Shown piece by piece: positions 1 through 45,871 of a stretch of DNA of 64,000 bases. The translations under genes and the position numbers were made by a program. Within the stretch, counting starts at the first letter, position 1. Every line of letters starts with the position of its first letter. Below the pieces are notes generated by a model. The model was not told the DNA's origin and made no database searches. It worked only from the letters and a program-made list of their open reading frames with translations. This DNA is from Monosiga brevicollis MX1 (taxonomy: Eukaryota; Opisthokonta; Choanoflagellata; Craspedida; Salpingoecidae), in assembly GCF_000002865.3 (NCBI RefSeq), contig NW_001865041.1, positions 144,486 through 208,485 of the forward strand, written 5' to 3'.

Positions 1-3000
1 CGCGGACACAGCGTAGTAACCCTCGCTGCAGTCCTTGCAACTCTGCTGATTGGCCTCGTCCTGGAACTGATGGCTGGGGCACTTGGAGCAAACACGGTCT
101 GAGCTTGACGTACCCGCAGCGTGCTCATAAGTACCCGCGGCACAATGTTTCCAGGGCTGGCATTGCGTGTCCTGGTTGTTGGCATTACCGCTGAAGCTGC
201 CCACGGGGCAGCCTGAGCAGGATCGATCCGAGGTCAACGTGGCGGCCACACTTTGAATCTCGCCCGACGCACAGAGGGTAGCAGCTGTGCATTCTTCTGC
301 GTTCTTCGTGTTTGAGTAGGATGAGCCCGAGATGCAGTTGGTGCAAACGCGGTCCCGAGCCAGAGTGGCCTCAGCCAAGATGCGAGTGCCGGGCATGCAG
401 TCGGTCACCGCCACGCAATCGGCTGCGTTGACCGTGGCACTGTACTTGCCCGTGTCACAGTCGGTGCATTGGCGAGGGCGCGTTGACGAGGGCGTGCGGG
501 AAACGTACTCGCCAGGCTCACAGCTTGAGATGGGCTTGCAGTCACCCAAACCAGCTTCATCCGAATAACCCGTCTGGCCATCGCAAGCAGCGCAGATGGT
601 GTCCGTGTAGTTGGTGCCGGGAGCAGCAGTGAAGGTGCCTGGTTGGCACACCGTGTGCGGCTTGCACTTGGTTTCCGTGTGGGCATAGCGGTCCATGTAA
701 AAGCCGGGGGCGCACGCGCTGCAAACGCGGTCGCTCGTTCGCGTGGCTTGCACTGAGGCAAACTCGCCAGCCTGGCAGAGTGTGACCGTCTTGCAGGAGA
801 CTTGACCGGCTTGATCTTGGTAAGTACTGATGCCGTCGCACATGATACGAGTCGTGGTACCACCGGGGCAACCGTAGCCAGGTTCACAGTACTGGATATC
901 AGTGCGCGTTCGAGGGCCACCGCCGACGCCAAAGTACGATGACGGGATTTTCATGCAGGTCGCCTGGCCAGTCTGGTTCTGGAAGGCGCCGACACCGCAC
1001 TCGGTGCATGAGCTCTGACCGTGTTCGGGCTGACCGTATCCCTTGGCACAGGGCTCGCACACGGCGCTGTTCGAGGAGCCGCTGTAAGTACCGGGCGCGC
1101 ACACGCCGCACTCGCGCTGAGAGCTGACGGTACCGGCCACGGTAACGTAGTGACCGACATCACAGTTGCGCAGCGTCTTGCACGAGTTACGGTTCACCTG
1201 GTCCTGGTACTGGGTTGACGAAGAGCACGCTTCGCACTCACGGTCATTAGACTCGGTACCGCCGACTGAGATGTAAGTGCCGACGGGGCAGGTGGACATG
1301 ACAGTGCACTGGCGGTTGGATGAGTGTGTGCACTGGGTCGTTGTGAATTCGTCTTCACCGCAGGGCTCGCAGTTGACACAAACACGCGAGGTTCGGTTGA
1401 CGTAAAACCTAGCGGGACACGTGTCCTTGCACGTCTGCGTGGACACGTCCAAGACCTTGGGGGCCGCGCAGTCCGTGCAGCGGTACCCCAGACCGTCGCA
1501 GTCGGCACAGCTGTCATCGCAGTCCGTGCACGTGCCGCCAGCACTGTACTTGCCGTACGAACACTCGGTGACGCACTGTCCGTGCTCGAGGTGAGTGCCC
1601 TCGGGGCAGCTCTTGCACTCCGTGTCCAGGGGGCCCGAGCACGTTTCGCACTTGGGATGGCAATCGGCACAGTATGGTGCGTTCAGGTGCTTGCATTGGC
1701 CAGCAAGGTACTCGCCATCAGCACAGTCGCTCTCGTGCAGACAGGTCGCGCACTCGAGGTCAGTGGTTGGGGTGCCCTCCACCTTGATGTACTGAGTGCC
1801 AACAGGGCAAACACTCATGGCCTTGCACTGCTGGAGGTTCTTCACATCACCGTAGTTGGTCACGCCGTCGCACGTCTGGCACACGCGATCCGAGGTTTTG
1901 GTGCCGTCATTCTCGATGTACGAACCCACAGGGCAGTCAGACCAGGGTTTGCACGATGCTTGGTCGCTAACGTCCTGGAAAGTGCCAGTGGCGCAGGCCG
2001 TGCACTCGCGGTCCGATGTCAAGGTGGCATTCTTCGATTCATACATGCCGACATCACAAGGGGCCGAGACGGGCACGCACTCGGTTTCCGAGTGCTGATC
2101 CGTGGCCATATACGAGTTGCCCGGAGAGCAAGCGGTACACGTGCGATCTGCAGTGGCAGAGCCGGCGCTGTTGACGGCCTTGCCGGCGGGACAGAGGCTA
2201 AGGGGCGTACAGCTTGCCGAGTTGGTGGTGTTGGAAAAACCGGCTTCACGGGCACTCGAAGTATCGTCCGGATCACAGCCTTCGCAGCTTCGATCGGTGG
2301 AAGAGGTACCAGCCGCAAGGACATACTGGCCAGCCACACAGTCACGCATCTTCGAGCACGCCGTATCGAAATGGTCAATGTCGTCGTTGAAGAAGCCGGC
2401 GGGGCAAGTGGTGCAGATGGCGTCGCGGATCTCGGTGGGCAGCTGCGAAGCGTAGGTACCGTAGGAGCAGTGGGTCACGTTCTTGCACACCGACTGGCCT
2501 TGCTGATCCTGGTAGGTATCACCCGTGACGCAGCGCATCGCCTGGCCACCAGTGCACCGGTATCCCACATCACACTGGGCAATCTCCTTGGCGGACACGC
2601 GGTAATATCCTTCCGGTACATCTTTGCACGCGGCCTGGTTGCTCTGGTCCTGATACTGGTCAGAGCTGCAGGCGCTGCATTGGCGATCGCTGGTCAAAGT
2701 GCCGGGCGTGGACACGTAGCTACCGGCCCCACAGTCACGCCAAGCCGAACAGGCCGCCTCTTCATGGTCCACGTTGTTTTGGAAGGAGCCAGCGGCGCAA
2801 GTCGCGCAGGCGCGGTCGCTGGTGCGGGTGGGGGCCACTGCCTGGGGAACAACTTTGCACGGACAAACACTTGGAGAGATTGGGCTTGTCCGTGAAGGTG
2901 TTGGTGGGGCAGGTCGTGCAAGTGCGGTCGGAGGAGGAAGTGGCGGCCTTGGCCACATATGTGCCGGGGGCGCACTCCGTCAAGAGCTCGCACTTGTTGG

Positions 3001-6000
3001 TGTCGGCGTTGGCATACGAGTTCTCATTGGGGCAGGCCGAGCAGACCGTGTCCGAGGTCTTGGTCGCAGCGGTGTCCACAAACTCGCCAGGTTTGCACAC
3101 GGTCACAGGCTCGCACGCCTCATCCACGTGCTCAGGATCATCCTGGAAGGTGTTGGCCGGACAGGCCGTGCACCGGCGATCTGTGGTGGTCGTGGGGTCA
3201 TTGCTCGCGTACTCACCCAGGCTGCAGTCCGATGCCGACTTGCAAGTGGCACGGCCAGACTGATCCTGGTACTGGCTGATGCTGGAGCATTCTTGGGGTT
3301 GGTAGTCACCGCCGGGGCAAGCGTAGCCGACCGGACAGGGGCTGATGCCCGTGCGGGTGCTGCTGGTGCCACCAGTGCCGTACGATCCAGCCGGGATGGC
3401 CGTGCACGAGGTGGAGCCAGCGCTCGAGTACATGCCCGCACCACACTCGGTGCAGATGGCGGCACCCTTGCTACCTTGGTAAGTACCAGCAGGGCATTGC
3501 GAGCACTGCACAGCGTTTTGACCATCGGTGTACTTGCCGGCAGCGCAGGTGCCACAAGTGCGGTCGGTGGACGACGTCTCCTGCTTCGTCACGTACTCAC
3601 CGGGGGAGCACACGGTCCAAGGAGCGCATTCATCACTGTTGCTTGCCGATGTGAAACCGCTGGAGCAGGGTGAGCAGAGGCGATTCTGGGTCGCGGTCGC
3701 ATCACGGGAAATCCGGGTGCCTGGAGCACAGGTGGAAAGCGCGGTGCAGACGGCATCCGAGGTGGCCGTGCAGTCGCTAGAGCGATATTCAGAGGTGTCA
3801 CATGTGTCACACTTGACACACTCATCTCGCTGCAGGTGGTGGAATTGGCCGGACGGGCAGTTGGAGATGCACTGCCGAGTGGCCGCGTTGAGGGTGCGAG
3901 GGGCAGTGCATGAAGTGCACGCGTTGCTGCCAGCGGCCTCACAGGTCGCACAGGTCGAGTCACAGTTCTTGCAGTTGCCAGACGTGCCGTAGGTACCAGC
4001 AGGGCACGGGTTGACGCACTGCTTGTTGGCGTTCAGCACGTAAGCACCGGGGCAAGTGAGACATTCACTTGAAGAAGGACCCGAGCAAGTGGCACATGAA
4101 CCATCGCAAACCTTGCAGGAGGTTCGTGAGGTACCACCATTGCAAGTTCCAGTGAGATATTCATTGGCCGCACAGTCACGCGCAACAAGACAGGTGGCGC
4201 ACTGGCGATTCGACTTGGCTGTGGGGGCCACCGCCTGATACTGGGTGGAAGTACACCTGGTCAGGACCTTGCAGCTCGTCTGGCCGGACAGATCCTGGTA
4301 GTTGTTGACGCCGTCGCAAGGGCTGCAGACCCGGTCCGAGGACGAGGTGGGTGCCCTCGATTGGAAGTAGCCAGCCGCACACACGGCGCTGTACGAGGTG
4401 CAGCCTGTGTTGGCATAGCCAGTCGCGTATTTGCCGGAGGGACAGGATGTGCAAGCACTTTGTCCAGTACCACTCGTGTAGGTACCGGGCGGGCAGGACG
4501 TGCGGGTGCAGTCACCAGGGCAATAAGAGCCTCGGGTACAGGTGGCAGTGGAGGTGGAGGAGGTGCGGTAGACGCCCGGGCTACACGCGGAGCACGACGA
4601 GGCGCCGGCAGTCGAGGTCACACCACCGGTGCAGACCTTGCAGCTGGTTTGTCCCCGTTGGTCCTGATAAGTCCCAGCGGCACAGGGTTGGCAGGTGGAG
4701 TAGCCACGGCCCGGGGCATACTTGCCGGTGGGGCAAGACTTGCAGCTGGTCTGGCCCGCTTGGTCCTGATAGGTACCGGCAGCGCAAGTGGAAGCCGAGC
4801 AGGAGTTGCACGAGCTACCGGTGGGGCATCGCACCTGGCGAGTACGATCGGGCGAGTAGTAGCCGGTGGAGCAGGAGCGGCACCCGGTCTGACCCAGCTG
4901 GTTCTGGTATTGACTGGAGGGGCAGGTCTTGCAGTTGGTCTGACCGGCTTGGTTCTGGTACTTTCCAGCAGGGCAGGCGTAGCGAATGCAGTTGGAGTGG
5001 GGGCAGTAGTAGCCCGAAGAGCAGGTGGCCAGCGTGGAGGAGGAGCTGCGGTACTTGCCCGGAGTGCAGGTGGTGCAACGAGTGGAGCCCGTCGAGCTGG
5101 TATACTGGTTGGAGGGGCAGGGCTTGCAGCTCGACTGGCCGTACTGATCTTGATACTGACCCGAGGGACACGACGAACAGGAAGTAGCACCGGCAAGAGA
5201 ATAGGTACCTGGGCTGCAGGTATAGCGGGAGCAGCTACCGGGGCAACGGGAGCCAGCAGGACAATAGGCTTGGGAGGACGAAGTACGGCGGTAATAGCCA
5301 GTGCTGCACGACTTGCAGCTCGTTTGACGGTACAAATTTTGATACTGGGACGAGCTGCAGGCTTTGCAGCTGGACTGGGCGTATTGGTTTTGATAGGTGC
5401 CCGGGGAGCAAGAAGAGCAGCTGGACCAGCCCGAGGACGAATAGGTGCCGGTGGGGCACGAGTTGCAGTAGTTCTTGCCGGTCTGACTCTGGTACTTGCC
5501 CGCGGTACAGGCGTAGCGGCGGCACCCGGTGCAGTAGTAGCCACGGGGACATGCCAAAATGGACGAGCCGGAGGAGTAGTAGCCAGACGAGCAGCTGTTG
5601 CAGCGGGTGGCACCATACGAGGGCTGGTAGCTGTTGCTAGGGCATGAGTAGCAAGAGGTACGGCCAGAGTAGGGCTGGTAGGTGCCTGGTCGGCAGCTGT
5701 AGCGGTAGCCCCTAGTGCAGTAGTAGCCTGGCTGGCAGCGGTATACGCGGTTGTTGCTCACGTAGTAGCCGCTGGGAACGGTGTAACAGGAGGTACGACC
5801 CGAGTAGGGCTGGTACTTGCCCGAAGGGCAGGTGTAGCAGTAGGAACGGCCCGTGTAGGGCATGTACTTTCCAGCCGAGCAGGTGCGGCAGGCTGAGTTG
5901 GCGCTGCCGGTGCTGTACTTGCCCGAAGGGCAAGAACGGCAGCTGGAACCCGAGGCGTAGGTGCCCGAGGAGCAACGCGTGCAGCGACCGCTGTAGGCGT

Positions 6001-7700
6001 TACCAGCATAGCCCGAGTAGCAACGACATCCACCATCGCAATTTGAGGAGGAATCGCAGCAGCCGTCACACGAGTATGAGCTCCAGTACCAGAGCCAGCC
6101 CCAACCATAGTAGGAGCAGCTGCAATCACAGCTCGAGTCGCGGTCGCAGCCCGAGCAGTAGCAGCCCGAGCAGGACTGGTAGTATGAGGTGCTGCGACGC
6201 AGACGCTTGAGACGGTCGAGGCCTTCAGCGTCGTTTTCGTCACCGTCACCGGCAGCGGCAATGGCTTCGACCACTTGGGCAATCTGGGTGGAGTCGGCAA
6301 GGAAAGCGACGAGGCGCTCAAAGTCAGCCAGGCGCTGAGAGGAGGAGGCGTAGCTGGGTTGTTGGGCCAGGGCGTCGCGCACAGAAGCCAAAAGGCCCTT
6401 TTCACGGCTGGCATCAAGGAGTTGCTGAATATGAGCCACGCTGGCGGCCACAAAGGTTTCGCTGACATCCTTGCCCGTGGTGCCATAATCGCTGTTGTCC
6501 CTCCAAAAGGGAATCAAATCACGCCAGGCGACGCCGTCCTGATTCTTGAAGATGGCCTCAAAGGTCTGGTCGAGAACGCGGCAATCGCTGAGGTTGGCGA
6601 GCGCGCAGGCATACTGGAGGACATCTTGCCAGGTGTGAGAATCTTGCAAGAGGCCGAGTGTCATGTGGACGGCCAAATCGGAGCCCTTGGTTTCGGCATA
6701 ATGAACCACACCCTTGGGCATGTACAAGACGTCGCCGGGTGACATGACAAACTCGGTGCAGTCCATGCGCTCGAGGTCGGCCTTGGTGAATGAAGAGCAA
6801 CCTGGGTGTGGAGGCAAGTGCAAGCAAGCAATGTATCTCGTGAGCGGCAAACAGGGCTTCGCCAAAACGCAGGTGAACTTTGTGATGGGAGAGAAAAGGG
6901 GAGTGGGAGAAGAAGAACATGGGGTGGTTGGAGTTACAAAGACACGGGCGCCGAACGGGGATGGGCGTACCTTGAACGTTCTCGCGAACCATCTCGTTGA
7001 GCTCGGCACGCTGGGCGTCTGTGGTGACTTCGGAGCTAGCGTTGACGCGGGGGATGCAAGTGTGCCAAACCTTGCGACCAGCCATGTGGACGACGACAAC
7101 ATCGTACTCGTCCGTGTGAGGCTTGAGCGCTTGGGCTTCCATGCCCGAGGCGTAGACGTGGGGTGTCACGGTGGTCAACAGCAAGCCCTGAAGGGCATCG
7201 ACCAGGGGCAGGGAGGCATGGGTCTCGAGGTGTTCAAAACGAAAGACAAAGCTACCACCGTTGTCGAGGACAGAGTCTACGTCAGTGTCCTGAGTGGGGC
7301 GGGGAAGCTTATCACCCGTCTTGGATTGGGCTGAGACCGCGTTGGGATTGGTGGTTGCGCTAAACGAGTTGAAGAGTTGCTTGGTCAACTCGCGGGGGTT
7401 GGCAACCAGCTCCTGAGGCATGAGGCCTTCGCCAAAAGCGGCTTGAACGCGAGATTCATTCCGTGTGTTGAGGCGAAACTGCTTCTGGCGGAAGCTGTCG
7501 CGGAAAAATTCCTGGAAGCGCGTGGCGCCAAAGAAAGATTCCAAGTAGGGGGACGAGCGCACAAAGGGCAGGTCCTCGAAGGACGCGGTATGTAGGGCGC
7601 CAAGGCGGGCATCGCTCACGGACACCTCGACTTCGGTGGCCAAGACCACAGCCGCCGTCAGCACGAGGGCCAGCGCGGCCCAAACGGCAGACCGGGCCAT
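1..7700 (-). CDS. Secreted JmjC/cupin-4-like domain protein with a giant cysteine-rich repeat ectodomain (5' part, runs off the window)
   Basis: Start ATG at 7700, followed by a clear signal peptide (MARSAVWAALALVLTAAVVLA). Exon 1 is 6971-7700; the intron is 6802-6970 (GTACGC...CCCAG); the next exon begins at 6801 and stays open to the left edge. Residues of about 25-440 look like the cupin-4 (NO66/MINA type) JmjC fold: PHTDEYDVVVVHMAGRKVW carries the HxD metal pair near residue 195, and PGDVLYMPKGVVHYAE carries the distal His. A basic RLKRLRRS site (about 6191-6217) then separates it from hundreds of residues of repeats rich in Cys, Gly, Ser and Tyr (units such as GTYQDQxGQTSCKxCP), TNFR/ephrin-receptor-like, with furin-like CxxC blocks near 4000 and 1600-1450. 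The reading frame changes once near 2840; both sides continue the same repeat pattern, so this is a sequencing error, a small unseen intron or an allelic break. Enzyme activity is inferred from motifs only. Receptor or matrix function is likely, but the C-terminus is missing. Confidence 0.85.
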
Positions 7701-8123: not shown

Positions 8124-8185
<62 letters not shown>

Positions 8186-15510: not shown

Positions 15511-15704
15511 CTCTGCTTGATCAGACGGTATTGTCAGGCAGGAGACGTGTGGTGGACGAGTGTTGTGCTGTAAGCGCTGGCTGATAGAACGTTGGCTGGG
15601 GTTGAGAACTCACGCCTGAGGATACGCTCGTGGTGTTGTATCGTGATCCGCCTCACCAGCCGACCCAAGGCCGTGCCATCAAGACTTGTCAAGAACCAGC
15701 AACG

Positions 15705-18067
15705 ATGGCCGACGCGGTTGTGGATGAGACGCGGCAGGAGATGCTGCAGTACTTTCAGCGTGTGGAGGGCATGCTGGATGCGAATGACTTTCCCTCCACC
15801 GAACAGCTTCAACTCTTTCTGACCAACGTAGTTGAGGAGATCAAGGGCAAAGAGAAACGGCTGGCCTGTGATCTTCACTGCAGCCGCGTTCTGGAGAAGC
15901 TCATTGCCAAAAGCGCCCCCAGCGCCGTGCACGAGCTCACCAAGGGACTGCAAGGGGACCTGCTAGAACTCTGCAACCATCGTTATGGGAGTCACGTCGT
16001 ACAGGCGCTCTACGGTGCCCTGCACAAGTACGATGGTGGATTTGAGGATTACGCGCGCATGGCCCCCGAGGAAACAGACGAGGCCGTCGATGGTGCTGGC
16101 GACCACCCGCCCCCCCTGGGCGAGCTGGACGAGGAGCTCCACCAAGAGAATGTGGAGGCTTACGAGGCTTTTCGTGCAATCATGCTGCAGCTCGGGGCTC
16201 ATCTGATGGAGAATCTTCAGCAAACATGGGAGGACACGTACGCGAGCCATGTCTTCCGCAGCCACGTGTGCTGTCTCTCTGGTATGGAGCTGCCCAAGAA
16301 GCTGCGTGCCAAGTCATCGCAAGGCTATCGAGTGGCGTTCAATCAACTGGATGAAACAGCCATTGAGCCGCCAGGCCTTCCTGTAGACGAGCTTCCCGCA
16401 GTCTACGGCAAGCAGCTGGCCACCCTGGTGGCTCAGCTGAAGACGGAGGCAGAAACTCTGAACCACTACATTTATCACACCACGGCCAGCGCCTGCTTGC
16501 AGGCCCTGGTTCTGGCCACCTTTCGCGTGGTGCGCAAGAAAGCCCACAAGCTTATTTCAGCGTTGTTGCACAGCTTTGGCGAGGATTCGCCCCTGGACAC
16601 AGCCGTCACCAACAGCACGGCCAGCCGCATCTTGGACGTTGCTTTGCAGTATGGCAACGAAAAGCATCGCCACACCATTTTTGAGGCTTGCTTCAAAGGC
16701 GAGCTGCTTGAACGCGCCACGCACAACGTGGCCAATTTTGTGCTTCAACGCTGTCTAGCAGTGGCTGAGCGCGAGGACGTCAAGCTCATCCTGGTCGAAC
16801 TCGGACCCAACCTGGAGGATATTTTGGCCGAAGGCAAAACAGCAGTCATTGCCTACATGCTGGCGGCAGCTGCACGCGTTGGCGTGCAGGAAATGGAGCT
16901 GATGCAGCACTTGGCAGCGGCATTTCATTTTGACTGGGAGAGCAATGTGCAGGATACAGCAGCCTGCTTGCTTAGCGTGAGCACGCTCGAGCGTTGGCAG
17001 GAGCTGGCGGCCGATGACAAGGGCTTGGCCGTTAGCACGCGCTTCAATCGCATGGGCTCTGAATTGGTGCAGGCCGTCTCCAAATTGTCTGCCCGTGCCA
17101 ACCAGCCGCTGCTGCGCAGCTTGGCCTCTTGGGATGCGGCCTTGTTGGCCGACATGGCCCAGCACCGCACCGGTTCCTTTGCTCTGCAAGCGGTGCTTCA
17201 GAGCCCAGCTGTGCTGGATAGTGACAAGCTGCCGTTGGTCAAGGCTTTGAGCGCACACGTGGTCGCCGTGGCCTGCGACAAGTTTGGCAGTCACGTCGTT
17301 GATGCAGCATGGAATGCCGCTCCCATCAAAGTCAAGCAGAGCATGGCCGCTAGCTTGGCTGGTGCTGAGGATAAGTTGCAGGCCTCTCCCCAAGGCCGCT
17401 TTGTTCTGCGCAATTGTCGGATTTCGGCTTTTAAGCGCAACGCTGAGGACTGGTAAGATCAAGCACTGGAGTGCTGACACTTCGGGCGTACCGTGTTGCT
17501 CAGTTTTGAGACTTGCAGCCGGCTCTTCTCAACTGCTCTGTCGCTGGTCCCCCCCCCTCTCCTCTCTATAGGCAACTGATGATGGAATCTAATGCACGCA
17601 AGGCCAAGATGTTTGCCTCCATCATCGACGACGAGGACACGGGCACGCCATTGGTAGAGTCGACGCAGGCGCGCAAAAAGAAGCAACGCGAATCACGCAA
17701 GGGCAAGCGTGCCACTTCAGACAACACGGCCGGGGCTTCTACTGAGGCTTCATCTTCGATCAAGCACAAGGTACGCTACCAGCATTCGTGTGTGTGTGTG
17801 TGTGTGTGTGCACGCTTTGAGCAGTCCCTGCCTTTGTTGTGCCATTTTCGTGCCTCGTTTGTCTGTTCCAGACTCAATGACAATTTTTTTTTTTCCATGA
17901 CACTGGGTTATCATTGTTAGAAGAGCAAGCGCAGCAAGCGCGATCCTGAAGCCGCGGTTGAGGGAGCTGATGATTTGTCATTCTTGGCCGAGGCTCTGGC
18001 GGCGACCAAGGGGGACCAAGGAGGCGCAGGCAAGTCAACCAAGCGCAGCAAGCGCAAAAACGACTAG
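15705..18067 (+). CDS. NOP9: Nucleolar Pumilio-like protein NOP9
   Basis: Three exons: 15705-17452, 17572-17770, 17921-18067; phases agree, 697 residues. Repeated PUF-type helices are visible, for example DLHCSRVLEKLI, NHRYGSHVVQALY, NSTASRILDVALQYG and CDKFGSHVVDAAWN; the end of the core (GRFVLRNCRISAFKR) matches the end of yeast and human NOP9. The tail is rich in Lys and Arg (KKKQRESRKGKR, KRSKRKND), a likely nucleolar signal. NOP9 binds pre-rRNA near the 3' end of 18S and is needed for small-subunit maturation. A GTG-initiated upstream extension to 15630 is unlikely; ATG 15705 (ACGATGG) is preferred. The second intron holds a short (GT)n run near 17791-17811. Confidence 0.93.
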
Positions 18068-25140: not shown

Positions 25141-25846
25141 NNNNNNNNNNNNNNNNNNNNNNNNNNNNNNNNNNNNNNNNNNNNNNNNNNNNNNNNNNNN
25201 NNNNNNNNNNNNNNNNNNNNNNNNNNNNNNNNNNNNNNNNNNNNNNNNNNNNNNNNNNNNNNNNNNNNNNNNNNNNNNNNNNNNNNNNNNNNNNNNNNNN
25301 NNNNNNNNNNNNNNNNNNNNNNNNNNNNNNNNNNNNNNNNNNNNNNNNNNNNNNNNNNNNNNNNNNNNNNNNNNNNNNNNNNNNNNNNNNNNNNNNNNNN
25401 NNNNNNNNNNNNNNNNNNNNNNNNNNNNNNNNNNNNNNNNNNNNNNNNNNNNNNNNNNNNNNNNNNNNNNNNNNNNNNNNNNNNNNNNNNNNNNNNNNNN
25501 NNNNNNNNNNNNNNNNNNNNNNNNNNNNNNNNNNNNNNNNNNNNNNNNNNNNNNNNNNNNNNNNNNNNNNNNNNNNNNNNNNNNNNNNNNNNNNNNNNNN
25601 NNNNNNNNNNNNNNNNNNNNNNNNNNNNNNNNNNNNNNNNNNNNNNNNNNNNNNNNNNNNNNNNNNNNNNNNNNNNNNNNNNNNNNNNNNNNNNNNNNNN
25701 NNNNNNNNNNNNNNNNNNNNNNNNNNNNNNNNNNNNNNNNNNNNNNNNNNNNNNNNNNNNNNNNNNNNNNNNNNNNNNNNNNNNNNNNNNNNNNNNNNNN
25801 NNNNNNNNNNNNNNNNNNNNNNNNNNNNNNNNNNNNNNNNNNNNNN
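25141..25846. other. Assembly gap, 706 N
   Basis: Unknown bases. The right edge opens with a poly-C run (25849-25863). Reading frames that cross the gap are meaningless. The gap lies in the spacer upstream of bZIP-like gene 2. Confidence 0.99.
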
Positions 25847-38482: not shown

Positions 38483-41400
38483 ATGCTGATTGATCGTCGC
38501 CCGAGCAAGCCGTCCATCGGCGCCGGGCTGCAGACGACGCACACCGCTGGCATGGGCTCCACGGAACCCCTTCCTGCAAGCTCCACCAGCCCCAAAGTAC
38601 CGGCCATGGCCGCTGAAAGCAGGCACACACCCACCCCGTCCCTACCGGACAGCCACACCCTCTCTTCAAACGAATCGAGCCGCCACGGCAGCCGGCGCAA
38701 CAGCATCGCCAACGAGCCTCGTACCCCTTCCCCTTCCCCCTCCCCGCGCCCACAGCCACCCCCCTTGGCTGGAGGCTCATCCTCCCGCCGAGGCTCAGCA
38801 GCCCGCCGCTCTTTCTCCCGCACCGGTCATCGACCCGGCCATCGCTCTCCCTTTAGTCCCCAACCCAGCACCCCCCAACCTGATTTGCACACCGGCTCTA
38901 GCGACGAGGACTCAACATTGGACGTCCTTCAATCCACTTCCCCGGCTTTGCCCGAGCACGAGCCCGTCGTTCGACACCGATCCAATTCTCGGCGCACCTC
39001 CAGCAGCCCAGCCAGTGCGCACACCGTGCGCCCTCCAGCCCTTTGCTACGATGAGCCCACCACTCTCAACGACGCGCGTATGTCAATCCTTGACCCAACC
39101 TTGCAAACACATGTGATTCTTTCCGCACCCCGCCCAGCCCCTGGTCACTCACTTTTTTTTTTCGGTGTCTGATTCCTCGTTTCCGTTGTCGTATACCAGG
39201 GGCCTCGACGGCATCTCCGTCAGATGAGTTGCATGAATACTTCAAATTCAGCCGAACACTTGGCGAGGGTGCCTTTGCCAAAGTCAAGCTGGCGACCCAC
39301 GTTGAATCTCGTGCGTTTCATGGCTTTGGCCCCATCAATAAAGGAAAAACAAAAACAAAAGAATTTCGGTCGCACCTGCCCTGGGCTCATGGGCTTGCTC
39401 CGTTCCACATCATTCCTGCTGCAAACATGACCCGCTTCACTCACCACCGGTTGTGGATGGCGTGCTGTCACAGAAATCCGCGTTGCTGTCAAGATTATTG
39501 ACAAGGCTGCCATCAAGGAAGACTATATTCGCAACAACCTCCATCGCGAAGGCAATCTTTTGAAAATCCTCGCTCACAAGCACATTGTCAACCTCTTCCA
39601 AATTATTGAAACTGGTACGTGTATATAAGTCACAAGGCGTGAGGGAAAAAAAAAGGATTTTTCTCAATGACAAGCGGAGTCTGCCAAGCCTGTTGTGCCT
39701 CACCACCACCTGTCGTTAACACTGTGCAGAGAATCAATATTGCCTCGTGACCGAGCTGGCCGAACGCGGTGAGATCTTGGAGTATATCGTCGCCCATGGT
39801 CCTTTGAACGAGAAGGAGGCTCGCAAATACATACGGCAGATGATTTCGGCTGTCGACTTTATGCATCAATCTAAAGTTGTGCATCGGTGCGTCTGCGCCG
39901 AACTTGCTGGGTACCGGATGCCTCAGCCACCTCACTCGGCTCGTTATGCATGTATGCCCATCTGCAGGGATTTGAAAGCTGAGAATTTGCTCTTGGATCA
40001 TGACCTCAACCTCAAAATTGTTGACCTGGGTTTGGGCAATTCAATCGCTGACAAGGACTTCTTGCGCACACAGTGCGGAAGCCCCGCCTACTCAGCTCCC
40101 GAGCTTCTTGGCGGCAAAAAATATAACGAGAAAGTTGACATTTGGAGCATGTGCGTGCAGTTGCCTTGCTTTCACGCACACTGGGATGCATCGAACCATG
40201 GAGTCACTCACTTGTCTGCTCGTCGCAATTTGCAGTGGAGTAAATTTGTATGCCATGCTAACCGGCAAGCTGCCATTTCCAAGCCATAACGTCACAACTT
40301 TACATGCTCTTATTTTGGATCAAGCCTATGATGTTCCAGATCACTTTTCCCCTGGTTTGTGCGCTTTCGATGCCCGCACCGCGTCGATGCTGGTTGGACC
40401 ACCGTACTTTGCCCGTCTTTTCTCAAGCCCGCGACACGTGTCGTAGAGCTCGTTGATTTACTGAGCCGCATCCTAACTGCCAAGCCGAAGGATCGAATCT
40501 GCATGTCCGATCTGCGAGCCCATCCATGGATTATTGCTGGTGCGTGCTTCTTCTTACGAGATGCGCTCGCACGTGTCTGCCTTGGTCTTGCTTGTTTTCT
40601 TCTTCTTCCGCCTCTCCTCTTCTGTTTTCTTGATATCTCTGTGGTTCACTGGCGCTATGAAGCTGTCTCAATACCAATGTCCTCTGATTTCTTTCACATT
40701 TTACTTTGATCAGGTGGTCCTATGAGCTCCGAGGTACTTGAGCCCCGCCGAGAGGCCAAGGACTTGGATGATGATGTGATCCACTACATGTGCAATGAGG
40801 TTTGTGCTTAAACCTGGTTATTGTCTGAAGGCTCCATCCTTTTATTCTAGATTTGCCGCGCTGGTCGCTCACTTTGACACTCATAATGTGTTTTTTTTTT
40901 CTCCTTTTTTTTTTCTTTTCCTCCCTCCAGCTGGCCTATACACGAGATGAAGTTGTGGAGGCCGTCTTGGACGAGCGCTTTGACAGCACACACGGCTGCT
41001 ACAATATTTTGATGATTGAAAAGAGACGTGTTGGTCGGCCTGGCGCCCGCCGCGATGCGATCATGGCTCAACGCCAGCAGCGCATGCGGCGCAGCCAAAC
41101 GGAAGGGCACTTGGCGCAGTCGCACTTGCATGAAGGTGTGATGCCTCGGCGTGGAAGTGACCGGGCCGCCGACCGTGGACCTCGGCGCATTCGTCGACTC
41201 TCGCTTTCTCAGCCGATCAATCTGGCCAAAGAGGACACTGTGCATCAGGCCGGCCAAGCTGGCAACGTGACTCAGACGACGACCCAAACAAGTCGATCCA
41301 GCGCACGGGGGCGTCATGACGTTGCGCCTCGAGCAGAATCACCTGGCTATCGCCGCAATTCTCTCTCCAGCCTCAATCACTTACGTCGCACCGCGACTAC

Positions 41401-42076
41401 TAATGTGCCCACCGCCGGCCCCGTGAGTCGGCGTACGAGTGATTCAACAGTGGCCACAGCCACTTCGCCCAGCAGTGAGCATCAGAGTGGGGGTGACTCT
41501 CGCCATCAACGCCTGTCGGATATGCTGCATTCCACCTCGCCTCGGGTTCGTTCGGGCTCATTGACGATCAGCGCCCATCGACCCCGCCGCAACACCGGGA
41601 CCTGGGCAGAACCTGCTTCCGCCCACAAACCGGCTGGGACGTCTTCCAACGGGCATGGTCACGGAACTGGTGGCGCCGAGCCGCTTCCCTCCATCATGCG
41701 GCCGCGCACGGACAGCTTGTCTCGTCTCTCCCGCCAGCCCTCCAGCCCCGTTTCGGCAGGAAACGTGGATTCTGAGCGCCCCCTTAAGGTCAATGCCATG
41801 CGTTATCCGTTGTCTCAGAAGATGGTGTCTGCCAAAGACCCACGAGAGATCTTTGGACAACTTTTGCGTGCATTGGAACATCTGGGGCTGGTAGCCCAGG
41901 CAATGCGTGACCCCATGTTAGCTGTTCGGGCCACCAAGAACGATTTGGTTCTAGAGGCTGAGGTGGTTAAAGTTCCACAGCTGTCGCTGCATGGCATTCA
42001 CTTCAAGCGCTTACGTGGCGAGACGTACGAGCACCGCGAGATTTGCACACGCTTGATTGATTTGTTGGACATGTGA
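38483..42076 (+). CDS. AMPK-related Ser/Thr kinase, HUNK-like, with UBA-like and KA1-like domains
   Basis: Nine exons: 38483-39077, 39200-39310, 39474-39614, 39730-39886, 39968-40150, 40236-40354, 40447-40539, 40714-40799, 40931-42076; all phases agree, 876 residues. A Ser/Pro-rich N-terminus is followed by the kinase domain: LGEGAFAKVKL, RVAVKIIDK, HREGNLLKILAHKHIVNL, VVHRDLKAENLLLD, QCGSPAYSAPELL, NLYAMLTGKLPF. The metal-binding motif is DLG (IVDLGLGNS) rather than DFG. After it come a UBA-like segment (DDDVIHYMCNELAYTRDEV), a long Arg/Ser-rich region with phospho-type RRxS sites, and a C-terminal KA1-like domain (HGIHFKRLRGETYEHREICT). The catalytic part is closest to animal HUNK, but HUNK lacks KA1 as far as I recall, so a MARK/SNRK-like ancestor is possible. 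The start could lie in an unseen upstream exon; ATG 38552 is also in frame. Confidence 0.88.
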
Positions 42077-43443: not shown

Positions 43444-45871
43444 CCATCGCGTTTCCAGTCGCTGCGATGCCTCCACTGATCAGTGTTGAACCGCGGACCT
43501 TGATTAGGTGGTGCAAGATCGTCATGGTCCTCTCATCTTTGGTGACCAAGAGCACGGGTTTTGCTTCAGCTATAATTTCACAGTTGCTGATCCCGATGCG
43601 CGCGGCGGCCTACGTCAATACTGCTTTCTTCTTTTAATGAGCGACATTCTGCGACTGGTGGCTTCATGGCACTTTTTACGCCACCATCTCCAGATCCTCA
43701 TACGGGACATGACTTCCAAGGTGCGCCATCGTCCAAGATATCTTCATACAACCCAAAGCTTTGGCCGTGTCCAGATTTCTCCAACCGATGGCTTTTGCCC
43801 CGTGATACGATGGGCTCTTTGGTTGCTTGTTTGCAGGCCGAGAGGTTGGCCCGATTGAAGCAAAACAGCTCCGTCACCTCGTGAGTGTTGCTTTTCTCTT
43901 CCTTATTTCACGTGAGCAAGGGAGATCAGTTGCTCCGGTTGGGCCAGCCATGTCTTGCGTGCTGCTGTACCCATGTCATCACTGAGCCACCCGGCTGGGG
44001 GAACCACTAGACCTCCATCGACGCCGACCCGGCATCAACACCGACGACGGGCGGCTGCCAAACCTTTGGCTGATCTCATCGAGCACGAAGCACTTGAAAC
44101 AGACCTACACTCTTTTTTGGCCTGGTTATTGCGGGTTGGTATCTGCCACTTCCTGAACCGTGGTCTTGAATGTAGTCTGAGCCTTGCGACTACTCATCAG
44201 TGCGCTTGCTTGCTCTTTCCAACCCACTTCAGAATTGTCAAACGCGGCTCTTTGAGCGGCAGTTGGAAGGAGGCAGTCTCCTGGGCCACACCGCTGTACC
44301 TCAAGACGTGGGTCAGGCTGACGCACCACATTCATTATCCTCCTCCCCCACTGCCATGGCCGATGGAAGCTCGCCATCCCCTTTTGGCAGTGTCGCTAGC
44401 ATGCACACTCCATCATTTGCCTTTGATCTTGCAAGCCTGCAAAGTGTATGTATGATTGCAAACACACCGTCTCTAATGGTAGTCTGGAGCATTCCTCCGT
44501 ATACTCCGAGGGTACATGCGACCTGAATACTTTGAATGCGTTTAGGTGTACAACGCACTGGGTGCCGATGGGTTTCGGATTGCCGCCCAGCACGTCGTGG
44601 TGGGAAGTCAGATCGTTGCAGCCGGCTCGCAAGTACGTCAAAAGCAGCGCTTCTTGAGCCAGATTCACCCCCTCAAACATCGTCTCACTTCTCTGGCATG
44701 GGCGCAGACACAGCTGGTCAACGCTGTCCTGCTTCAAATGATGACGTTACTGCCAAAGCATTGCATCACGGTTACGCTCAACGCTAGCACGTACCAGCCA
44801 CCCTTTACCGGAAACTTTTTGGTTTGTATCCACACATTGTCGTCTAACACCTGACACACAGCATCGGGTGCCCGATTTGACCTTGTGGTTGCTGCTTTTT
44901 GCAGGGTCTTGCGGCGAATGTCGACATTCCAGAGCAGTTGGATATGGAGACGACACTTTGCATTCGCTTTGACGAGCCACAGCCCGACGACAGCTTTGTC
45001 AGCCGTAAGCAACCCCTGCCCCCTGCCTCCTCCTTCTCCCCTTGAACTGAGTGTATTTGTTCTCGGAATCGGTCCACATGATCAGTGTGATACAGACGCG
45101 CTGTGGGATTGGGACAGAGCGTCAGTTGACTTGATACCATGGCCTTGCTATCATTGCTTTTAGGCCTTTCTGAGGAAGATAGCTGTGAAGCCCTTCCAAT
45201 TAGTGTCACGGTTCTGGGGGATGCACCGGTCCCACGGCACACGCTGAGCATCGTTCAAGAGGTGATGCACATGTTGTCACAGTCTATATCTGAGGTTCGG
45301 ACCCATGCCGTAGCCAATTGTAGAACGTGTACCCTGAGTGCACTGAGCAAACTTGCTGTTCCATGCACGATCCCACCCAGGAGGCGCAAGAGCAATGGCT
45401 AGTTGTCATTCGTGAGAAGTGGACTCGCTTGGCGCGCCTCTACTTTGCCTTGTCGCGAATGCCCAACCGAAAAGGCTCGGATGAAGACATTGCTCAGGCA
45501 AGACCGATCGATTCTGCTTTGCTTTCTCCACCGCCCCCCCCCCCCCCCCCNNNNNNNNNNNNNNNNNNNNNNNNNNNNNNNNNNNNNNNNNNNNNNNNNN
45601 ACCGATGGTTTTTTTTTTGTTTTTTCCACGGCCCCCCCCCCCCCCCCCCCCCACCCATTGAGCGTGTGTTCCATTGTCTTCCATGTTTACCACGTTGCCT
45701 CATCTGAATTTGGCTTGCCCTCTTCTTCCACTCCACTTTGGATAATAGCGTCTGGGCGTCCGCCGCTATGATGTGCGGGTCCTACGCTTCTGGTGCCAAG
45801 GGCTTTCACGCGTGCTGCGCTCCAAAATTTTGCGATCCATAGCCGACGCAACTCGAAGCGAGGGGCAATGA
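42972..45871 (+). CDS. FLCN: Folliculin, FNIP-partner and RagC/D GAP
   Basis: Eleven exons: 42972-43376, 43508-43720, 43837-43880, 43987-44134, 44233-44445, 44546-44632, 44708-44821, 44905-45004, 45164-45294, 45381-45497, 45749-45871; all phases agree, 564 residues (human 579). The N-terminal longin domain begins MSIVVALGHFCEQHGPRVVY (human [20 protein letters not shown]). PLIFGDQEHGFCFSYNF leads to DPDARGGLRQY, where Arg167 aligns with the human GAP arginine finger Arg164. The C-terminal DENN part matches through PPFTGNFLGLAANVDIP, EEAQEQWLVVIREKW and VLRFWCQGLSRVLRSKIL. Folliculin controls mTORC1 signalling to TFE factors at the lysosome. The donor of exon 1 is the first GT of a long (GT)n tract; the donor of exon 10 is GC (CAG/GCAAGA). 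The last intron contains the 50-N gap. Confidence 0.95.
43377..43440. repeat. (GT)n microsatellite at the folliculin exon 1 donor
   Basis: About 31 GT units begin at the last base of exon 1, so that the repeat itself supplies the 5' splice site. Confidence 0.95.
45551..45600. other. Assembly gap, 50 N, inside the last folliculin intron
   Basis: Fixed-length gap bordered by poly-C. The sequence before it (from ACCGATCGATTCTG at about 45506) and after it (from ACCGATGG at 45601) look like two reads of one segment, each ending in TCCAC[C/G]G and poly-C. Confidence 0.95.

Follow-up and report, generated by a model that had tools for sequence, protein, structure and literature searches.

In this work, we analyzed a stretch of 64,000 nucleotides from the choanoflagellate Monosiga brevicollis MX1 (contig NW_001865041.1, positions 144,486 to 208,485; G000:C54:144486-208485, hereafter the window), and specifically a minus-strand gene that starts with ATG at window position 7700 and is cut by the window edge. 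This gene would encode a giant type I receptor with a leader, an N-terminal JmjC_2 domain of the Fe(II)/2-oxoglutarate (2OG) oxygenase kind and a disulfide-rich repeat region of about 3,600 residues outside the cell, and with tandem SH2 domains and a tyrosine-bearing tail inside. Its head is shared by a family of 22 loci in the same genome, one of which encodes the kinase-bearing receptor RTKB2. In our judgment, the head is probably an active oxygenase of the secretory-pathway lumen that hydroxylates receptor repeats or other surface proteins, on receptors that join the phosphotyrosine network.

The JmjC head

The preliminary description of the window, made from the letters alone, had claimed a JmjC/cupin domain of the NO66/MINA pattern and had proposed looking for profile matches, for cosubstrate-binding residues and for the fold. 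The Pfam analysis of the joined protein bears this out: residues 169-296 (6644..7196, interrupted by an intron; all features of the gene lie on the minus strand) match JmjC_2 (PF08007) with an E value of 1.6e-17 and 63.7 bits against a cutoff of 22, Cupin_8 scores slightly below its own cutoff, and the phmmer match of the head to NO66 has an E value of 2.9e-10. The metal-binding HxD motif H195-T196-D197 (PHTDEYD, 7110..7118) and the distal metal-binding His277 (GVVHYAE, 6701..6703) align with their counterparts in NO66 and MINA, and Lys210 (7071..7073), 15 residues past H195, aligns with the lysine of their G-x-K-x-W motif, which has a role in 2OG binding. The fold was recovered in the predicted model of a paralog, with NO66/MINA as best fold match, so that the proposed structure check was passed by that paralog rather than by the window protein itself. 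Structure alignments of the paralog model mostly stop by residue ~332, and the ~150 residues between JmjC domain and repeats in the window protein gave no Pfam match. A chance occurrence of the motifs was rejected because of the Pfam and PDB matches and the 22 family loci. Judged by its sequence, the head is a JmjC domain of NO66/MINA type in which the metal and 2OG residues are present.

Gene structure and receptor anatomy

The JmjC domain is encoded by two exons separated by a GT..AG intron of 169 bases in phase 1 (6802..6970). Exon 1 (6971..7700) holds 243 codons plus one base and ends with the residues ...ENVQ; exon 2 starts at 6801, and the spliced protein contains ENVQGCSSFTKADLERMDCTEFVMSPGDVLYMPKGVVHYAE. 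The intron position is apparently common to paralogs, for example at loci C35a and C55. The second half of the JmjC domain and ~1,100 residues of repeats lie within one open exon, which, together with the same order in paralogs, upholds the claim that the domain is joined to a giant cysteine-rich ectodomain. In a first frame, the cysteine-rich array occupies 2852..6184, with Ephrin_rec_like followed by TNFR_c6 repeats; within one repeat (2833..2851) the frame changes, and the other frame resumes the array directly (1..2844), extends ~6 kb past the window and is free of stops until G000:C54:138503. The change may reflect an assembly or sequencing error, a real indel, or an unrecognised or odd splice. 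No base was restored; the two frames were simply set end to end, which gives ~4,505 residues, and from residue ~450 to the transmembrane (TM)-like helix described below there are 390 cysteines over 3,630 residues.

The preliminary description had also placed a signal peptide ahead of the JmjC domain, and a hydrophobic stretch beginning with the start codon (7638..7700), likely a signal peptide, is indeed present. It was recognized by eye and by a crude measure, a 10-residue mean hydropathy of at least 2.0 near a Met, which here reaches 2.87; both this leader and the helix were judged by hydropathy rather than by dedicated predictors. As to the more than 2000 residues of TNFR/furin-like repeats described earlier, the cysteine-rich array stands, but it extends past the window, contains the frame change and scores as Ephrin_rec_like (best E value 8.9e-33) and TNFR_c6 (E values from 6.9e-54 to 8.8e-12, depending on the piece). 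Past the window edge, the second frame adds further repeats of both types, one hydrophobic TM-like helix (GLSAGVVAVIALMVVLLVVVALGFAVW) and two SH2 domains above the Pfam cutoff (G000:C54:139290-139484 and G000:C54:138813-139049), both of which keep the FLVR-like arginine (GDFVVRES and GNFLIRES). Behind the helix there are 392 residues, among them 11 tyrosines, some of which lie within the SH2 domains. A Pfam search of the last 1,999 residues found these two SH2 domains and no kinase domain. A leader, a single TM segment (both by hydropathy) and intracellular SH2 domains are what is expected of a phosphotyrosine receptor. Given the helix and the SH2 domains, the earlier reading of a solely secreted protein was dropped, and the window protein resembles a receptor that crosses the membrane once and bears tandem SH2 domains.

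A family of 22 receptor loci

When the N-terminal 427 residues of the window protein were compared with the same genome, 39 exon matches were obtained, which we grouped into 22 receptor-type loci (the window gene included) and one RIOX-like locus (C39); a JmjC_2 family search gave 43 exon matches, other JmjC genes among them. The HxD motif, the Lys210 equivalent and the distal histidine are each present in 22 of the 22 loci. In an alignment of 18 family loci (A2; window-protein numbering), cysteine 215 is found in 17 of 17 (C44 lacks that exon), cysteines 245 and 258 each in 18 of 18, and cysteine 309 in 17 of 18, the exception being C34b, perhaps misaligned. We infer that these conserved cysteines are compatible with disulfides formed in the secretory pathway. 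A leader passes the crude hydropathy threshold in 18 of the 22 loci; of the other four, C41a and C41b have visible leaders that the script missed, C51 reaches 1.96 against 2.0, and in C12b the first Met lies further upstream. Over the JmjC exons, dN/dS is 0.14-0.34 in six of seven close pairs, one pair being saturated. Cysteine-rich frames follow the JmjC exons in C12a, C32, C46 (a near copy of C32), C41a, C41b, C34a, C44, C17, C56, C18, C35a, C35b, C34b, C55, C51 and C54b, and this recurrence argues against a chance join.

Among the JmjC paralogs, L053-L056 have large ectodomains; two L053 frames were tested, of which one gave no Pfam match and the other a Big_5 match below cutoff. An Ephrin_rec_like match (G000:C48:714260-714388, minus strand) falls within a 7,060-residue open frame, downstream and on the same strand of the JmjC locus at 718136, and may belong to an even larger receptor of the family.

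RTKB2 carries the JmjC head

The tail of locus C51 contains SEEVYGAVVD and CEEVYEAIAD, the last two of its six repeats of this type. In the available part of the study on M. brevicollis RTKB2 (PMC3584944), RTKB2 has six RM2 copies, and the peptides used, SEEVYGAVVDKKK and AEEVYEAIADKKK, were taken from repeats five and six; the second of these differs from the genome at its first letter (A for C). Since peptides and repeat count agree, C51 is, by sequence, the locus encoding RTKB2, which also identifies the organism as M. brevicollis. Its joined N-terminus (L040, L058) matches JmjC_2 with 44.8 bits. In the same text, the domain list of RTKB2 comprises Cys, HYR, SCR, EGF, tm and RM2, with JmjC not named, and its kinase starts at residue 1450 of the published model, which therefore leaves room for a JmjC part. 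More generally, JmjC is not named in the available portions of three kinase papers (PMC10263333, PMC3584944, PMC8662651), where ectodomains are described as cysteine-rich, HYR, SCR and EGF; the word "cupin" does not occur in PMC10263333 and PMC8662651, nor "JmjC" in PMC8662651.

RTKB2 and the window protein are alike in their JmjC head, cysteine-rich region and TM-like helix; they differ in that the two SH2 domains of the window protein take the place held in RTKB2 by a tyrosine kinase and six RM2 repeats, and the window protein, with no kinase match in its last 1,999 residues, does not qualify as an RTKB receptor tyrosine kinase. We counted nine RTKB kinase loci, namely six whose kinases are 56-95% identical to that of RTKB2 (which is itself one of the six), together with C18, C56 and C54b. 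The family is described as having nine members in the accessible text of PMC3584944, a number equal to ours, with C51 as the only locus identified directly.

Possible exchange of tails beneath one kind of head

On the same strand, an RTKB-type kinase lies downstream of the head in five loci (C51, C38, C18, C56 and C54b); helix and kinase were read in C51, C56 and C54b, and C38 and C18 were assigned by position only. The HRD motif is missing from the kinases of C56 and C54b (HSRTVLVSALSGRN and HGYLCAAN), and the JmjC receptors with HRD-less kinases, L049 and L045, are likely pseudokinases, as judged from their sequences. Same-strand SH2 domains lie downstream in four loci: the window gene, read through from head to SH2 domains (frame change aside); C12b and C47, each with two SH2 domains ~7 kb downstream, Ephrin_rec_like matches in between and a joining stretch only partly read; and C55, with one SH2 domain, a helix that was read and a joining stretch also only partly read. 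By our arithmetic (114 SH2 exon matches in 39.5 Mb), chance alone would place a same-strand SH2 domain within 10 kb of ~0.3 of the 22 loci. In C12a, C32, C41a and C41b, the same-strand frames finish with a hydrophobic helix followed by a short tail, which bears tyrosines in C41a and C41b. This survey leaves out C34a, C44, C28, C17, C48, C35a, C35b, C34b and C46. The same JmjC head is thus found with kinase and SH2 outputs within one genome.

A tree was built from 15 of the 22 receptor heads together with the C39 RIOX and seven bacterial sequences. In it the receptor heads cluster as a single group (95/92; 94% of bootstrap trees), a result compatible with an origin of the heads from either RIOX or bacterial JmjC_2. 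The kinase receptor RTKB2 pairs as sister with C55, which has SH2 downstream (91/85), C12b and C47, both with SH2 domains, group together, and the window gene stands elsewhere on a long branch. The sisterhood of C55 and RTKB2 and the separate placements of the SH2 loci therefore suggest that tails have been exchanged beneath one kind of head, although the long branches call for care. A scan of viral contigs was negative, one of genome contigs yielded a single bacterial relative (L057), and matches were obtained in 18 of 282 further bacterial genomes.

Relation to known proteins

The best match of the head, in sequence and, for the paralog model, in fold, is to NO66/RIOX1 and MINA53/RIOX2, with which it shares the JmjC_2 domain, the HxD...H residues and the G-x-K-x-W lysine. 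NO66 and MINA are nuclear or nucleolar proteins with C-terminal dimerisation and winged-helix domains. The window gene, unlike them, has a leader, conserved cysteines, cysteine-rich repeats, a TM-like helix and SH2 domains; its leader argues against a role of the predicted protein in histidyl hydroxylation of ribosomal proteins, and the RIOX-like locus on C39 is separate from the receptor family. Animal receptors of the Eph/TNFR/EGFR type resemble the window protein in having Ephrin_rec_like and TNFR_c6 repeats outside and one TM helix, but they have a kinase or death domain in place of SH2, and we know of none with an oxygenase domain.

JmjC oxygenases have mostly been studied in the nucleus and cytosol. 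One JmjC protein of the secretory pathway is already on record, namely JMJD8, which, as far as the available text goes, has a signal peptide, is reported in the ER lumen and clusters with JMJD7 (PMC5684140). JMJD8 and the window protein both combine JmjC with a leader, but JMJD8 consists of JmjC only and has no receptor, SH2 or kinase part. Among the literature matches listed, whose coverage did not extend to the 2008 papers on the genome, kinome and phosphotyrosine system of Monosiga, no receptor with a JmjC ectodomain appeared. The modules are known, and their order was not met in literature discussion, although automatic domain databases may show it.

Proposed mechanism and alternatives

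Domain order (frame change aside), homology, the fold of a paralog and active-site conservation are established; that the head is an active protein hydroxylase is inferred, as are all steps of the model beyond anatomy and conservation. The secretory-pathway lumen is where P4H, PLOD and ASPH work, and the JmjC domain most likely works there too, where JMJD8 is also reported. Its substrates would be the cysteine-rich repeats of its own or sister receptors, or other surface proteins, and the SH2 tail would bind partners that have been phosphorylated, for example sister receptors that bear a kinase, as RTKB2 does. With JmjC at the outer end of phosphotyrosine receptors in a family of 22 loci, receptor signalling in this close relative of animals would be tied to 2OG/O2 chemistry. 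The finding that RTKB2 carries the head is the most useful practical result, because its kinase and tail have previously been expressed and assayed, as given in the available part of PMC3584944, and the idea is thus directly testable. It is tempting to go further and picture a receptor class with a working 2OG oxygenase tip, in which the signal, sensed or sent, consists in the hydroxylation of prey, of a partner or of a neighbour's receptor and is read by interchangeable tyrosine-kinase or tandem-SH2 tails; we regard this as unlikely, but if true, cell-surface signalling that depends on oxygen and metabolites would have existed before animals.

The main rival in our ranking, possible although on the unlikely side, is that the JmjC domain serves as a ligand-binding head or sensor (for a metal, 2OG, a peptide or a group on the prey surface), using its metal for recognition, with binding triggering the kinase or SH2 tails. 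The membrane-distal, N-terminal place of the domain across the 22 loci is in line with this, and so is its occurrence with kinase, SH2 and short tails, the C55/RTKB2 pair being what a module with exchanged output would give; yet metal and 2OG-type residues are kept at every locus, beyond the needs of binding, and the paralog fold matches active hydroxylases. An ecto-oxygenase whose targets are extracellular, such as bacterial prey, matrix or neighbouring cells, is partly the idea of the preliminary description. It would suit the receptor anatomy with its TM-like helix, and choanoflagellates feed on bacteria, but it would require external Fe(II), 2OG and reductant and has no precedent among the literature matches listed; we consider it quite improbable.

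The least credible reading is that two neighbouring genes, one for a secreted JmjC protein with repeats and one for a cysteine-rich SH2 receptor, only seem fused through assembly or false reading. The single frame change at ~2851-2833 would permit it; however, this change falls inside the repeat array, ~3.8 kb downstream of the JmjC domain, whose second half shares its open exon with repeats. Moreover, cysteine-rich frames follow JmjC in the paralogs listed above, and the kinase start given for RTKB2 in the accessible text leaves room for the domain. A fusion artefact was set aside since the order of JmjC and cysteine-rich region recurs.

Other features of the window

A simple (GA)n repeat (8127-8184) lies just upstream of the JmjC receptor gene. 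On the plus strand, an open reading frame (ORF) at 15630-17456 contains a NOP9-like PUF domain (E value 7.8e-82), NOP9-like PUF proteins being a nucleolar family. Runs of N, which are either assembly gaps or withheld stretches, occupy 25141-25846 (706 bases) and 45551-45600 (50 bases). A second plus-strand ORF, at 40853-42076, ends with a KA1 domain (E value 4.7e-12) and is perhaps the end of a kinase gene of the MARK/AMPK type.
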